A DNA stretch of 43,033 nucleotides. Origin: Limisphaerales bacterium. Its GTDB lineage: Bacteria; Verrucomicrobiota; Verrucomicrobiia; Limisphaerales; BOG-1460. Both the position numbers and the translations under genes were made by a program. The stretch is taken from positions 1 to 43,033 of the forward strand of contig PLQC01000168.1 in NCBI GenBank assembly GCA_003159675.1, read 5' to 3'. The notes below the pieces were generated by a model, which saw only the letters and a list, made by a program, of their open reading frames with translations, did not search any database and had not been told where the DNA came from. Below, piece by piece: positions 7,821 to 38,598 of the stretch. The stretch's first letter is position 1; every line of letters starts with the position of its first letter.

Positions 7821-7848
7821 TTGAATGTCCTGTCATTGCCGCTAGTTT
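7821..7848 (+). promoter_or_regulatory. Predicted promoter of the M3 peptidase gene
   Basis: TTGAAT and TAGTTT are separated by 16 nt. The -10 ends only 9 nt before the ATG at 7858, so the transcript would have a 5' leader of about 3 nt. The TAGTTTGC string closely matches TAGCTTGC before lptD and the Fur-family gene. Confidence 0.6.
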
Positions 7849-7857
7849 GCAGCCGGT

Positions 7858-9969
7858 ATGTCCTTGAAATTCCTTTCATTCGTTGCCCTGGTGGCTGTCC
7901 TGAGCGGGTGCACCTGCACCCGGCCAACACGCAAGACCGGCCCCGGGACCGACGCGCTCCGCAAATTCCAGGAGCGCGCCGCACGGTACCATGCCGTCGT
8001 CAGCGTGCCGACGTTCGAAACTTCCACAAATGAAATCCTGGCCACATTCACGAACACGCTCGATGCCGGGAATGCAGCGCTCGACCGCATTGGCAAGGTG
8101 AGTCCGGGGAAAGCCACGTTCGACAACACCGTTCGCGCGCTGGACGACCTCGGTTTTCAACTCGCCCTGGTGGCCAACCGGCTCTCTCTGATCGAGCAGA
8201 CCAGCACCAACGCGGCGGTGCGCGACGCCGCCACGGACACCATCAAGCGGCTCAGCGCCTGGATGGTCGGACTGGACTACCGCGAGGACGTCTATGCCGC
8301 GGTGAAGGCTTATGCGGACACCCGGCCCAGGCTGGCCGGCGAGGATGCGAAGCTGCTGTCTGAAACGATGCGCGATTACCGCCGCGCCGGGCTGGGGTTG
8401 GCCAAGGCCGATCGCGACGAAGTCGAACGGATGCGCAAGGAACTCACGGGATTGGAGACGGATTTCGAGAACAACGTCACGAAGGCGCACCAGGAGCTGA
8501 AATTCACCAAAGCCGAACTGGACGGGGTGCCGGAGGATTTTCTGCAACAAACGAAAACCGGCGACGACGAATACACCATCAAGGTCAACATAACATGGCA
8601 CTACATGACCGTGATGGAGAATGCCCGGCGCGAAGACACGCGTAAAAGGGTGGAAACCGGGCGCGACAACCTCGCCCGGGAGCAAAACATTCCCCTGCTT
8701 GAAAAGATCATTCCCTTGCGGGACGACATTGCCCGGAAACTCGGGTATCGGAACTACGCCGATTACGCCATTGAAATCCGGATGGCGAAGACCGGGGGAA
8801 CGGCGATTGATTTCCTGGAAAGGCTCCGGACCGGATTGCAGCCGAAATTCGACGCCGAGCTGGAGGAGTTTCGCAGACTCAAGATCGCCGAGACTGGCAA
8901 CACCAACGCGCAGATCCACCTCTGGGACTGGCGTTATTTTGCGAACCAGTTGAGGAAGCAGAAGTATAACGTGGACAGCGAGCAATTGCGGGTTTACTTC
9001 CCGTATCAACCGGTGCTCGACGGCATGTTCCGGATTTACCAGAGCATCTTCGGCTTGAAATTCGAGCGCATCCAGCCGCCTTACAAGTGGATCGGCGACC
9101 TGCAGCTTTACGCGGTGTCCGACGCCTCGACCGGCGAGCCCCTCGGACTGTTCTATCTCGACATGTTCCCGCGCGAAGGCAAATACAACCATTTCGCGGA
9201 ATTTGGCATCATCGACGGCAAACGGCTGCCCGACGGCAGATACCAGCGGCCGGTGGTCGCGCTGGTCTGCAATTTCCCCGCCCCGACCGGGGATCATCCC
9301 TCCCTGATGTCGCACGACGACGTCACGACGATTTTTCACGAGTTCGGTCACGCGATGCACGCGATTCTGACCCGCGCGAAATACTCCCGTTTCTCGGGCA
9401 CGAGCGTGCCGCAGGATTTCGTCGAGGCGCCGTCGCAGATGCTCGAGAACTGGACCTGGGACAAGAAGGTGCTGGACAGTTTTGCGGCGGATTATCGCGA
9501 CCCGTCGAAAAAAATACCGGCGGAAATCCTGGCACAATTGAAGGCGTCCCGGCTTGCGACCGAGGGCACCGTTTACCGGCGCCAGCTCGGCTTCGGCCTG
9601 ACGGATCTGACACTGCACACGGAAATCCATGACGACAACGCCGGAGAAGTGCTCCCGCTTTCCAACAGAACCCTGGGCGAAGTGTTCCTGCCCGTGCCGG
9701 AGAACACGGCGTTCGTGGCTTACTTCGGCCATATCATCGGCTACGGCGCCGGCTATTACGGCTATGCTTGGTCGGATGCGATCGCGGCCGACATGGCAAC
9801 CGTTTTCGAGAATTCGCCCGACGGCTACTTCGACAAGCAGGCGGGCATGCGGCTGCGCAAGGAAATCTACGAAGTGGGCGATTCGCGGGACGTGAATGTT
9901 TCGATCGAGAAATTCCTTGGCCGGCCTCGCTCGATCGAGCCGTTTCTCAAGAAGATCGGCGTGAAATGA
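7858..9969 (+). CDS. M3-family zinc oligopeptidase, lipoprotein
   Basis: The 703-aa product carries a lipoprotein signal (hydrophobic LSFVALVAVLSGC with the lipobox LSGC). The catalytic zinc motif is FHEFGHAMH (H494, E495, H498). Length and the C-terminal motif GYGAGYYGYAWSDAIAADM match peptidyl-dipeptidase Dcp / oligopeptidase A / thimet-type M3 enzymes, which cut short peptides inside a deep channel. The signal indicates an enzyme anchored in the periplasm, unusual for the mostly cytosolic M3 family. With neighbours dppD/dppF, a POT transporter and an OPT transporter it probably trims peptides before or during uptake. The near-leaderless promoter at 7821-7848 supports the ATG at 7858. Confidence 0.93.
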   Translation: MSLKFLSFVALVAVLSGCTCTRPTRKTGPGTDALRKFQERAARYHAVVSVPTFETSTNEILATFTNTLDAGNAALDRIGKVSPGKATFDNTVRALDDLGFQLALVANRLSLIEQTSTNAAVRDAATDTIKRLSAWMVGLDYREDVYAAVKAYADTRPRLAGEDAKLLSETMRDYRRAGLGLAKADRDEVERMRKELTGLETDFENNVTKAHQELKFTKAELDGVPEDFLQQTKTGDDEYTIKVNITWHYMTVMENARREDTRKRVETGRDNLAREQNIPLLEKIIPLRDDIARKLGYRNYADYAIEIRMAKTGGTAIDFLERLRTGLQPKFDAELEEFRRLKIAETGNTNAQIHLWDWRYFANQLRKQKYNVDSEQLRVYFPYQPVLDGMFRIYQSIFGLKFERIQPPYKWIGDLQLYAVSDASTGEPLGLFYLDMFPREGKYNHFAEFGIIDGKRLPDGRYQRPVVALVCNFPAPTGDHPSLMSHDDVTTIFHEFGHAMHAILTRAKYSRFSGTSVPQDFVEAPSQMLENWTWDKKVLDSFAADYRDPSKKIPAEILAQLKASRLATEGTVYRRQLGFGLTDLTLHTEIHDDNAGEVLPLSNRTLGEVFLPVPENTAFVAYFGHIIGYGAGYYGYAWSDAIAADMATVFENSPDGYFDKQAGMRLRKEIYEVGDSRDVNVSIEKFLGRPRSIEPFLKKIGVK

Positions 9970-14592: not shown

Positions 14593-14709
14593 GCGCTCAA
14601 TTGTCGTCTGCTACCGCAGTTCACGTGCCACCGCAAACCGCGAGAAAACCGGTTTTCGTGCGAATCACCGAAGCGCGCCCGATACACCGGTCGGTGGACG
14701 AAATCGGTC

Positions 14710-14739
14710 TTGGCAGTTCCGATGGCTTTTGGTTAGCTT
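14710..14739 (+). promoter_or_regulatory. Predicted lptD promoter
   Basis: TTGGCA and TAGCTT are separated by 18 nt. The -10 is followed by GCCGC and the ATG at 14750, 10 nt after the -10. The TAGCTTGCCGC string is identical at the Fur-family promoter (38140-38150). A start codon this near the -10 implies a 5' leader of only a few bases. Confidence 0.6.
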
Positions 14740-14749
14740 GCCGCGCCGA

Positions 14750-17008
14750 ATGACACGACTGCGCGCTATCGTCCCATTGACAGTCCTTTTGTTGTCCACA
14801 GGCATCTCTCTGAACGCGCAGCAGGAGCCCGGTTGGGAAATCCAGTCCCTCTCTCCCGAAGGCGGAATCGTTTACAATTTCAGCACCGGCATCGCCACGG
14901 CCACGAACGGGATTATGGTGAAGTATGGGGGAGCCGTGTTGACGGCGGACGCCGCATCTGTGAACGAGCAATCCGGCGAAGCCGTTGCCGACGGGAAAGT
15001 GCGGATCGAGCAGGAGGACCAGCTTTGGGTCGGAGAGCATGTGCGTTATAATTTCCACACTCATCAGATGGTGTCGGAACAATTTCGCACCGGGCGGGCG
15101 CCTATGTTTACGCAAGGCGAAGGCTTGCACGCCGACATCACCAATCACGTCTATAACGCCACCAACGCTTTCATTACCACCGATGACATCTCCGATCCGA
15201 TCATCAAAATCCGCGCGGCCCATATTTGGATCATTCCGGGCAAGCGGATCGAGGCGACCCACGCTGTTCTGTACGTGGACGACGTCCCGATCTTTTACTT
15301 TCCCTATTATTCCAGGAACCTTGGGGAGCGTGCGAACAACTTCAATTTTACCCCCGGCTACCGCAGCCTCTTCGGGCCGTTCCTCCTCGCCAATTATACC
15401 TGGTTCCTGAACGAGGAACTCGACACCATATTGCATCTGGATTACCGGGAGAAACGCGGCGTGGGCGGTGGCCCGGATTTCAATTTTCATCTCGGGCGGT
15501 GGGGCGAGGGCACTCTTCGCTACTATTACACTCGCGACGACGATGCAGGAAGCAATATTACAGGTGTCAAGCTCCCGGAGAATCGCCAGCGCGTGCATTT
15601 CACGTATCAGGCCACTCCCTTCACCAACCTGGACGTCAAATCGCTCGTGCAATACCAAAGCGACAGTGACATCATCAAGACCTTTTTCCCGGGTGAATAC
15701 CAGCAGGATCCGCAGGGCCAGACGTTTTTTGAAGTCAACAAGTTCTGGCGCAATTTCAGCCTCGATGTTCTGACCCAGCCGCGCCTGAACGACTTTTACG
15801 AAACCGTGGAGCGGCTCCCCGACGCGCGGCTCACGGGCTTTCGCCAGCCACTGGGCGATTCGCCGCTGTATTACGAGAGTGAAAGTTCACTGGGGAAGTA
15901 CCAGCACCTCTACGCAGGGACCAACAGCCCCTTTGCTTCGTCCACGAACAGCCTCATTGGCCCTCTAAACCAAATTCCCCCCAATTACTCGGCGTGGCGC
16001 GCCGACACCTACCAGCAAATCACACTGCCCGAGACCCTGTTCGGCTGGCTCAACATCACCCCTCGCGTCGGCGGGCGCTTTACTTACTACAGCGCCGTGG
16101 ATGTGGACGGAGGCGGAACAACTCTCAGGACAAATTCAGATACCTACCGTGAAGTCTTCAACACCGGGGCTGAGGTCTCCTTTAAAGCCTCGCGACTCTG
16201 GCCGGGCGTGCAGAGCAAAGCGCTCGATCTGGATGGGCTGCGCCATATCATCGAACCGTCCATCGACTATGTGTTCGTGCCGGCCCCGAACTACCGGCCC
16301 GATCAGCTTCCTCAATTTGATTCTGAACTGCCAAGCCTGCGCCTGCTGCCGATCGAGTATCCGGAATATAATTCGATCGATTCCATCGACAGCCAAAACG
16401 TCCTCCGCTTCGGCCTGCAGAACAAGCTTCAAACCAAACGTCAGGGACAGGTGGAAGATGTTCTTTATTGGCAAGTGATGACGGATTGGCGGCTGCGCCC
16501 CCGCAGCGATCAACGAACGTTTGCCGACCTCTATTCCGATCTTACGTTCAAGCCGCGCTCCTGGATCACGTTCCAATCCCAGACCCGATATGACATCAAC
16601 GGCGGCGACTGGCGCATGTTGCTCCACACACTGACATTCGAGCCGAATGACACCTGGAGCTGGACCGTGGGACACTTTTATTTGCGGGACGATTTCAGCA
16701 GCTCGCCGACTGCGCTCGGCCAGGGAAACAACCTGATCACCAGCAGCTTCTTCTATCGATTGAACGAGAACTGGGGCTTGCGTGCCTTGCACAATTTCGA
16801 TGCGCGCGACGGCCGCCTGGAGGAGCAGTATTACACGGTGTACCGCGACATGCGCAGTTGGACGGCGGCGCTCACGGCCGGCGTGCTCGACAACGGAACC
16901 GGCCCGAAGGATTTTTCGATCGCCTTCACCTTTTCCATCAAGGCGATGCCGAAGTTCGGCGTGGGCGGCGACTCCGTGCGGCCTTACTCCCTGCTCGGCG
17001 GCTATTAG
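14750..17008 (+). CDS. lptD: LPS-assembly outer-membrane protein LptD-like
   Basis: The 752-aa product has a signal peptide (LRAIVPLTVLLLSTGISLNAQ). An OstA/LptA-like beta-jellyroll follows (about residues 30-180: GGIVYNFSTGIATATNGIMVKYGGAVLTADAASVNEQSGEAVADGKV...). The long beta-barrel part is rich in alternating aromatic residues (FTPGYRSLFGPF, RYYYTRDDDAG, NENWGLRALHNFDARDG). LptD with LptE inserts lipopolysaccharide in the outer leaflet, so this indicates a diderm cell. No LptE is near. I chose the ATG at 14750 because it starts the signal peptide and fits the promoter; the frame is open 122 codons upstream without coding character. The stop is 27 nt from the convergent phosphoesterase stop. 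Confidence 0.85.
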   Translation: MTRLRAIVPLTVLLLSTGISLNAQQEPGWEIQSLSPEGGIVYNFSTGIATATNGIMVKYGGAVLTADAASVNEQSGEAVADGKVRIEQEDQLWVGEHVRYNFHTHQMVSEQFRTGRAPMFTQGEGLHADITNHVYNATNAFITTDDISDPIIKIRAAHIWIIPGKRIEATHAVLYVDDVPIFYFPYYSRNLGERANNFNFTPGYRSLFGPFLLANYTWFLNEELDTILHLDYREKRGVGGGPDFNFHLGRWGEGTLRYYYTRDDDAGSNITGVKLPENRQRVHFTYQATPFTNLDVKSLVQYQSDSDIIKTFFPGEYQQDPQGQTFFEVNKFWRNFSLDVLTQPRLNDFYETVERLPDARLTGFRQPLGDSPLYYESESSLGKYQHLYAGTNSPFASSTNSLIGPLNQIPPNYSAWRADTYQQITLPETLFGWLNITPRVGGRFTYYSAVDVDGGGTTLRTNSDTYREVFNTGAEVSFKASRLWPGVQSKALDLDGLRHIIEPSIDYVFVPAPNYRPDQLPQFDSELPSLRLLPIEYPEYNSIDSIDSQNVLRFGLQNKLQTKRQGQVEDVLYWQVMTDWRLRPRSDQRTFADLYSDLTFKPRSWITFQSQTRYDINGGDWRMLLHTLTFEPNDTWSWTVGHFYLRDDFSSSPTALGQGNNLITSSFFYRLNENWGLRALHNFDARDGRLEEQYYTVYRDMRSWTAALTAGVLDNGTGPKDFSIAFTFSIKAMPKFGVGGDSVRPYSLLGGY

Positions 17009-18018: not shown

Positions 18019-18047
18019 AGCCTATCAAGAACGGATCCCGACGTCAC
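18019..18047 (-). promoter_or_regulatory. Predicted promoter of the phosphoesterase gene
   Basis: Read on the minus strand, GTGACG (18047-18042) and TAGGCT (18024-18019) are separated by 17 nt. The -10 ends 5 nt before the ATG at 18013, so transcription would begin at or next to the start codon. Confidence 0.5.
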
Positions 18048-18357: not shown

Positions 18358-18405
18358 AAAAAAAAAGCCCAACTCGCCGCAGGTTCCACCTGCGGCCTTT
18401 TTTTT
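18358..18405 (+). terminator. Attenuator terminator before DAHP synthase
   Basis: GCCGCAGGT (18376-18384) and ACCTGCGGC (18388-18396) form a perfect 9-bp stem with a TCC loop, followed by eight T (18398-18405). An upstream run of nine A (18358-18366) can pair with the T-run. The terminator lies 30 nt before the DAHP synthase ATG and 21 nt after the leader-peptide stop, the expected place for an attenuator. Confidence 0.9.
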
Positions 18406-18435
18406 GTGGAGACCTCCGGCTAACCTTAATCCGAT

Positions 18436-19455
18436 ATGATCATTGTCCTTAAACCTGGCGTCTCAAAGAAGCAAGAAACCACCGTGCTCAGGGAAATCCG
18501 CAATCTGGGTTACCGTCCCCACGTGATGCGCGGCGTGGCCCGCACCGTCATCGGAGCCATCGGTGATGAGCTCACTCATCAATCGCTCGAAACCCTGGTC
18601 ACACTCTTCCCGCAAACCGTCGAGAGCGTCATGCCGGTGCAGAAGCGCTATAAGTTCGTCAGCCGTGAAGCCCACCTGGACGATTCGACGATCAAGGTGC
18701 GCGAGCATGTCATCGGAGGGAAAAAACTCCACGTGATGGCGGGGCCCTGTTCGGTCGAGAGCGAGAAACAGTTGCTCACAACGGCCGAGGCGGTCAAAGC
18801 CGCAGGGGCGACGATCCTGCGCGGCGGGGCGTTCAAGCCGCGCACGTCGCCGTATGAATTCCAAGGGCTCGGCGTGAAGGGATTAAAATTGCTCGCCAAG
18901 GCACGCCGTGAGACGGGACTGGCCGTCATCACCGAGTTGCTCTCCGAAGCCCACGCCGGAATCATCGCTGAATATGCCGACATCATCCAGATCGGTGCGC
19001 GCAACGCGCAAAATTTCCAATTGCTCATCGCCGCGGCCAAAACGGGCAAGCCGATTCTGCTCAAGCGCGGGTTGTCGATGAAAATCGAGGAGTGGCTGCT
19101 CGCCGGCGAATACATTCTGGCCAACGAAAACAGCAACCTGATGTTCTGCGAACGGGGAATTCGCACGTTCGAAACCTATACCCGCAATACCCTCGACCTC
19201 TCCACGATTCCCATCATCAAAAGGGAATCGCATTGCCCCATCGTCATCGACCCAAGTCAGGGAGCAGGGCGGGCTGATCTCGTGACTGCCATGTGCAAGG
19301 GGGCTGTGGCAATGGGCGCGGATGCGCTCCTCATCGAGGTTCATCCGAATCCCGCCGAAGCCTGGAGTGACGGCCCGCAACAGTTGTCCCTGGAAGTGTT
19401 CGCGAAACTGATGCGCGAACTCCATCCGTTCATTCTGGCATCAGGCCGGGAATAA
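18436..19455 (+). CDS. aroF: 3-deoxy-7-phosphoheptulonate (DAHP) synthase, AroA-I-beta type
   Basis: The 339-aa enzyme condenses phosphoenolpyruvate and erythrose-4-phosphate in the first step of the shikimate pathway. Family blocks are visible: MAGPCSVESEKQL, RGGAFKPRTSPYEFQGLG, QIGARNAQNFQLL, KPILLKRGLSM, CERGIRTFETYTRNTLDL and DPSQGAGR. Residues 1-80 are the ferredoxin-like regulatory domain (MIIVLKPGVSKKQETTVLREIRNLGY) known from the Thermotoga enzyme, where it gives feedback inhibition. Expression is likely controlled by the aromatic attenuator just upstream. Initiation at 18436 lacks an obvious Shine-Dalgarno. No other shikimate genes are near. Confidence 0.95.
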   Translation: MIIVLKPGVSKKQETTVLREIRNLGYRPHVMRGVARTVIGAIGDELTHQSLETLVTLFPQTVESVMPVQKRYKFVSREAHLDDSTIKVREHVIGGKKLHVMAGPCSVESEKQLLTTAEAVKAAGATILRGGAFKPRTSPYEFQGLGVKGLKLLAKARRETGLAVITELLSEAHAGIIAEYADIIQIGARNAQNFQLLIAAAKTGKPILLKRGLSMKIEEWLLAGEYILANENSNLMFCERGIRTFETYTRNTLDLSTIPIIKRESHCPIVIDPSQGAGRADLVTAMCKGAVAMGADALLIEVHPNPAEAWSDGPQQLSLEVFAKLMRELHPFILASGRE

Positions 19456-34414: not shown

Positions 34415-34458
34415 TCGCTTCTATATGCCGCCAAAGATAGACGGACGGCAAGCGGCAG

Positions 34459-38097: not shown

Positions 38098-38114
38098 TTT
38101 GGAATTATTCCAAA
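38098..38114. promoter_or_regulatory. Palindrome resembling a 7-1-7 Fur-family box
   Basis: TTTGGAATTATTCCAAA is a perfect palindrome with 8-bp arms and one central base. It ends 2 nt before the -35 of the Fur-family gene. The 7-1-7 geometry matches Fur/PerR boxes although the bases differ from both consensuses. Confidence 0.7.
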
Positions 38115-38116
38115 TC

Positions 38117-38145
38117 TTGACAGAACCCCTCCGGGCGTCTAGCTT
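38117..38145 (+). promoter_or_regulatory. Predicted promoter of the Fur-sufB-sufC genes
   Basis: TTGACA and TAGCTT are separated by 17 nt. The ATG (38155) is 9 nt after the -10, so the leader would be about 3 nt. TAGCTTGCCGC is identical at the lptD promoter. Confidence 0.65.
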
Positions 38146-38154
38146 GCCGCAACC

Positions 38155-38598
38155 ATGACCCGGGTCGAGCCCAAAAAAACCAGCGACCGCCTGTCGCAAC
38201 GGCTGCGGTCGAGCGGCTTTCGCTTCACGCCGCAGCGGCAGCACGTGTACGACGTGCTGCTGCAAAAGCGCGACCACCCCACGGCGGAGGAGGTTTTCAT
38301 CCGGGCCAAGGGCGGAATGCCGGATATCTCCATGGCCACGGTCTATAATTGCCTCGACACGCTCGTCCAATCCGGCCTGGCGCGGCAGGTCACGGTGGAC
38401 CGCGGCGCGACGCGGTTTTGCCCGAATATGCGCGAGCATTGTCACTTTTATTGCGACGTCTGCGCCCAGGTGTTCGACATCGGGCTGACCGGCGAGGCCC
38501 CGGCGGGAATCGCGCTGCCACGAGGATTCAAAGCGGCGCGATTCGAGATCGCCATTCACGGCACCTGCGCCGGCTGCTCGAAAAATGGCGCGCATTGA
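38155..38598 (+). CDS. Fur-family transcriptional regulator
   Basis: The 147-aa product has a winged helix (LRSSGFRFTPQRQHVYDVLLQKRDHPTAEEVFIRAKGGMPDISMATVYNCLDTL). A metal-binding domain follows with HCHFYCDVCAQVFD and a C-terminal HGTCAGCSKN, i.e. two CxxC pairs for a structural zinc. The acidic regulatory ligands are less clear, so Fur, PerR or a dedicated suf regulator are all possible. The 7-1-7 palindrome beside its promoter suggests autoregulation. sufB begins 42 nt later on the same strand, which points to iron or redox control of Fe-S assembly. Confidence 0.9.
   Translation: MTRVEPKKTSDRLSQRLRSSGFRFTPQRQHVYDVLLQKRDHPTAEEVFIRAKGGMPDISMATVYNCLDTLVQSGLARQVTVDRGATRFCPNMREHCHFYCDVCAQVFDIGLTGEAPAGIALPRGFKAARFEIAIHGTCAGCSKNGAH

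Follow-up and report, generated by a model that had tools for sequence, protein, structure and literature searches.

The window analysed here, a DNA stretch of 43,033 nucleotides, belongs to a 4.11-Mb assembly of 182 contigs, a Limisphaerales metagenome-assembled genome (MAG; Verrucomicrobia subdivision 3). It carries genes for an M3 family peptidase, lptD and a Fur-family regulator, each with a -10 box close to its start codon (Table 1). The window holds three TAGYTTGC sites against 0.81 expected, each directly 5' of a gene: TAGTTTGC at 7843-7850 before the M3 peptidase gene, and TAGCTTGC at 14734-14741 before lptD and again at 38140-38147 before the Fur-family gene. Here the gap counts the bases lying between hexamer and start codon; measured this way, the distances of 9, 10 and 9 nt that the first-pass annotation gave for the ATGs at 7858, 14750 and 38155 were borne out, as were its -35 boxes 16-18 nt away for these genes (TTGAAT at spacer 16, TTGGCA at 18, TTGACA at 17) and the GCNGC said to follow the hexamer, present at all three window sites.

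Other close -10 boxes had been listed as well. TAGGCT was found 5 nt before the phosphoesterase ATG (18013, minus strand) and TATAGA 5 nt before the kinase start, at an alternative ATG (34414, minus strand). The 7-nt distance given for an "aro leader" did not hold; instead, TAACCT lies 9 nt upstream of an open reading frame (ORF) at 18436. The region so labelled, 18386-18440, has a T-run (ttttttttgtgg) and a GC-rich stretch, followed by TAACCT and the ATG of this ORF.

Table 1. Promoter features and genes of the window, followed by four genes elsewhere in the genome that are preceded by a TAGYTTGC site.
Feature	Position	Strand	Details
-35 TTGAAT, M3 peptidase promoter	7821-7826	+	spacer 16; CTTG here kept in most orthologues
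-10 TAGTTT, M3 peptidase	7843-7848	+	ends 9 nt before ATG 7858; GCAGC follows
M3 family peptidase gene	7858-9969	+	family scan: Peptidase_M3 PF01432, E 7e-116
-35 TTGGCA, lptD	14710-14715	+	CTTGGCA conserved through the order
TGnTTAGCT, register conserved in lptD orthologues	14730-14738	+	TG 14730-14731, hexamer 14733-14738; 17 nt after TTGGCA
-10 TAGCTT of lptD, first-pass register	14734-14739	+	spacer 18; ends 10 nt before ATG 14750
lptD gene	14750-17008	+	family scan: PF04453, E 1e-11
-10-like TAGGCT	18019-18024	-	ends 5 nt before ATG 18013 (-); -35-like GTGACG, spacer 17
-10-like TAACCT	18421-18426	+	ends 9 nt before ATG 18436; weak -35
TATAGA	34420-34425	-	5 nt before ATG 34414 (-); final base not T, weak candidate
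Inverted repeat TTGGAATTATTCCAA, perfect 7-1-7	38099-38113	+	resembles PerR/Fur box; 3 nt upstream of -35
-35 TTGACA, Fur/PerR gene	38117-38122	+	spacer 17
-10 TAGCTT, Fur/PerR gene	38140-38145	+	ends 9 nt before ATG 38155; orthologues keep position, not sequence
Fur-family regulator gene	38155-38598	+	PF01475; best NCBIfam resemblance PerR, below cut-off
Fe-S fumarate hydratase (family scan)			TTGACT-N17-TAGCTT, gap 7; outside window
LolC/E permease (family scan)			TTGACA-N17-TAGCTT, gap 7; outside window
CitMHS-type transporter (family scan)			TTGACA-N16-TAGTTT, gap 8; outside window
fabD (family scan)			gap 8; outside window

The nearest named relatives of the Fur-family regulator come from Verrucomicrobia subdivision 3/Limisphaerales MAGs. 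Across 24 Fur/PerR orthologues, namely those with a promoter readable near the start, TTGACA and the position of the -10 box are kept, with a gap of 9 nt in 14 and of 8-11 nt in 23, and the hexamer varies freely (TAGCTT, TAGTGT, TATGTT, TACGTT, TAAAAT, TACCTT and others). In 13 of the 24 a pyrimidine-purine step follows the hexamer at 7 nt (p=0.002 against 0.25), predicting a 3-nt leader at a gap of 9. Orthologues in less closely related families of the class often lack the start-adjacent promoter. The inverted repeat upstream of the -35 box is conserved in the orthologues in the form TTAGAATTATTCTAA, and the TTGGAATTATTCCAA repeat is likely an autoregulatory operator of the Fur-family gene.

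The Fur/PerR orthologues L086-L089 of one Limisphaerales family (L165 is the same gene in genome G062) have no ATG, GTG or TTG at the start. In L086-L088 the -10 box itself supplies the TAG that closes the reading frame, and ATA is the codon found 6 nt after the box, at the leaderless distance. The next canonical start comes only at codon 18-19, and codons 10-17 vary between lineages almost only synonymously, as translated codons do. Leaderless initiation at AUA is likely for these genes, L089 being ambiguous. The broader proposal, in which the fixed 9-nt gap with its 3-nt leader would be a selected Limisphaerales mode of initiation apart from true leaderless starting and the fur/PerR promoter of this one family would start an AUA-initiated leaderless message, is regarded as rather unlikely.

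For the M3 peptidase, a perfect TANNNT lies 6-10 nt before the ATG in 9 of 20 orthologues, its sequence changing, with CTTG kept at the -35. For lptD, most orthologues keep the block CTTGGCA(N)-...-TTTTGnTTAGCT at constant spacing, the ATG usually following TTAGCT by 10-13 nt. The base after TAGCT varies among these orthologues, and the conserved register is therefore TGnTTAGCT, resembling an extended -10 at spacer 17, and not TAGCTT. In 14703-14750 and in lptD orthologues L135-L164, AAATnCGnCTTGGCA-N17-TTAGCT is strongly conserved at a fixed spacing throughout the order, with TG one base before the hexamer. The 1.03 Mb of the genome searched contained no second copy of CTTGGCA-N17-TTAGCT. The block may serve as an extended -10 promoter or as a regulatory site dedicated to this gene.

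The first-pass annotation had suggested that TAGYTTGC(NGC) may form an extended -10/discriminator element of its own, tied to genes that start with no or nearly no leader. Several counts from the genome itself speak for such an element. Of the 43 TAGYTTGC sites in the whole genome, 7 precede the start of a real gene by 7-10 nt, the three window cases among them. With the window left out, 4 of the remaining 40 do so at 7-8 nt, where about 0.07 would be expected if about 3600 genes are assumed (p about 1e-6), so the cue that the annotation picked up is not chance. Additionally, the near-start set contains 5 TAGYTTGC against 0.35 expected from independent columns, 3 of the 5 being the seed cases, and GCNGC follows the hexamer 7 times near and once far. 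The own genome thus retains a mild preference for TAGYTTGC and for GC behind near-start hexamers (13/80 vs 8/124, p=0.03), in a comparison that includes the seed cases and is partly driven by them. An unbiased k-mer scan near starts found TAGCTTG, TAGTTTG and TAAGCTG raised beside unrelated words, with no single dominant element.

Against the proposal, other hexamers make up most of the near-start -10 boxes of the same genome, and the main genome-wide peak lies at gap 6 and comprises many hexamers, in place of TAGYTTGC at gap 9. Distance controls were used in relatives because the pattern read backward is compositionally unlike the forward one. In 57 relatives from the order, TAGYTTGC-N4-8-ATG showed no near enrichment over TAGYTTGC-N24-28-ATG (334 vs 298, p=0.16), and the base-swapped TAGYTTCG-N4-8-ATG occurred 379 times, giving no preference for TAGYTTGC. 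The fur and M3 orthologues keep only TANNNT, the middle and downstream bases varying, and lptD rests on the register TGnTTAGCT; the three genes therefore share no one ancestral or selected TAGYTTGCNGC element. A dedicated element is accordingly judged quite unlikely, and we conclude that TAGYTTGC represents a good -10 whose discriminator starts in G and which merely happens to occur often in this genome.

As a class-wide element, TAGYTTGC was ruled out by the distance and base-swap controls. The Bacteroidetes-type -7 promoter has the form TAnnTTTG. Here the TTTG end is not conserved, with T at hexamer position 5 in only 21% of near sites, and the -35 boxes of the near-start promoters are TTGACA-like.

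The position of promoters was followed through the genome with the looser TANNNT. Genes were called in a 1.03-Mb sample of stretches, blind to promoters and Shine-Dalgarno (SD) sites, and TANNNT was then plotted against the start codon. For first genes, it peaks sharply at gap 6 (27/553 vs 3.8 expected, Poisson p about 1e-14), and over gaps 5-11 it occurs in 13.0% vs a background of 4.8%, an excess of about 8% of first genes by a strict count that underestimates weak promoters and takes in some background. A better -35 box accompanies TANNNT near the start than TANNNT 14-29 nt upstream (37/80 vs 20/74, p=0.02), and SD-like sites are rare before first genes (11.2% vs 7.8% background). Operon-internal genes of the same sample show no TANNNT peak near the start (3.7% vs 2.6% background), and the GGAG-type sites ascribed to them by the first-pass annotation are evident, SD-like sites standing at 26.4% vs 9.1% background. 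The 3' end of the 16S rRNA gene was not found in the sampled stretches. When 200 kb of E. coli K-12 was run through the same script, TANNNT was depleted near starts (6.6% vs 17.9%) without a peak, and SD was detected in 61% and 90%.

These results bear on whether the ATGs themselves could have been miscalled, with true starts downstream and ordinary leadered promoters. Gene starts were predicted by a simple gene finder, so that part of the ATGs may be wrong, and the M3 peptidase and lptD proteins have 5' ends that are signal-peptide-like and less constrained. However, the peak falls exactly at gap 6 although starts were chosen without promoter information, the Fur orthologues align from their first residues with the promoter-to-ATG distance kept, and E. 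coli gives SD and no peak through the same pipeline, making general miscalling very unlikely. TANNNT is short, with a background of 4.8% per 7 positions that amounts to about a third of near sites, and part of the near-start sites are chance matches; that all should be chance hexamers in AT-richer intergenic DNA is hardly credible given the sharp positional peak, the distance, operon-gene and E. coli controls and the conservation in orthologues.

The breadth of the pattern was assessed by comparing TTGAC-N17-19-TANNNT ending 5-11 nt (near) and 25-31 nt (far) before any ATG, whether a gene start or not. By this measure the own genome has 35 near vs 14 far matches, 23 Limisphaerales genomes together have 737 vs 385, with near exceeding far in 22 of the 23, and an Akkermansia-like genus (the label is inferred) has 1350 vs 732, with near exceeding far in all 18 genomes. 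Among the groups summed, only genus g29 lacked a near excess (73 vs 90). One Akkermansia-like genome (G060) showed a strong gap-6 peak (12/162; 20.4% vs 7.8% background), and in the Limisphaerales relative G049 the TANNNT excess near starts was weak (12.2% vs 9.0%). G081, first taken as a negative clade, proved not to be one, its family f26 having 66 near and 16 far TTGAC promoters. Start-adjacent promoters are thus widespread, though not universal, in the class.

Start-adjacent -10 boxes that are real, genome-wide and conserved make leaderless or near-leaderless initiation likely for a sizeable minority of first genes. The reading that we hold with considerable confidence is that housekeeping-type, sigma-70-like promoters (TTGACA/TANNNT) are set so close to these genes that transcription would begin on the start codon itself or 1-5 nt upstream. 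From the observed promoter position, genome-wide peak, lack of SD sites and conservation, we infer the start sites, the sigma factor and a leaderless ribosome pathway as follows. RNA polymerase with a sigma-70-type factor would start 6-8 nt past the hexamer, 0-5 nt before the AUG. With a -10 ending 6 nt before the ATG, the first nucleotide of the message would be that of the start codon; at the 9-10-nt gaps of the three window genes, the leader would measure about 2-5 nt, too short for an SD site. A 5'-terminal AUG would be recognised directly by the ribosome without SD pairing, and operon-internal genes would rely on SD sites. TAGYTTGC would then count among the variants of the loose TANNNT -10, here with a G/C-rich discriminator, and would not be an element in its own right. 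The mRNAs of many first genes therefore probably carry no or almost no leader, with the -10 only 5-11 bases before the start.

For metagenome-assembled genomes of this kind, the findings offer a simple rule by which start codons can be corrected, and a special TAGYTTGC element need no longer be considered. The conserved 9-nt gap of fur/PerR additionally provides a clean test case for whether a 3-nt leader and no leader differ in function.

Starting genes from adjacent promoters is already known from Akkermansia and other bacteria, and the mechanism proposed here fits the three examples that follow. Cappable-seq of Akkermansia muciniphila found 10% of high-confidence transcription start sites to coincide with annotated start codons, preceded by -35 and -10 boxes (PMC4782308). 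That organism belongs to the same phylum but to another family, and its evidence is experimental, whereas ours is sequence evidence from uncultured Limisphaerales, in which many genes have a gap of 7-11 nt, suggesting a short leader, rather than one of 6 nt. What is added is a new order for start-adjacent promoters, so far measured in this phylum in Akkermansia and now extended by sequence evidence to an order without cultured members here and to the greater part of the class as sampled, along with the 9-nt gap that fur/PerR conserves. In the TA-led genes that Zheng et al. 2011 described from high-GC bacteria, TANNNT stands about 10-12 bp before the start and carries little information in its middle three positions, like the near-start -10 boxes described here; Verrucomicrobia are not named in the list of phyla of that leaderless-gene survey (PMC3160421). 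In Deinococcus-Thermus, a "-10-motif" of TANNNT 6-7 bp before the ORF acts as the -10 region and other genes have GGAG sites (PMC12340547); nearly one third of genes there have a start-adjacent -10, compared with the excess of about 8% of first genes in the present genome.
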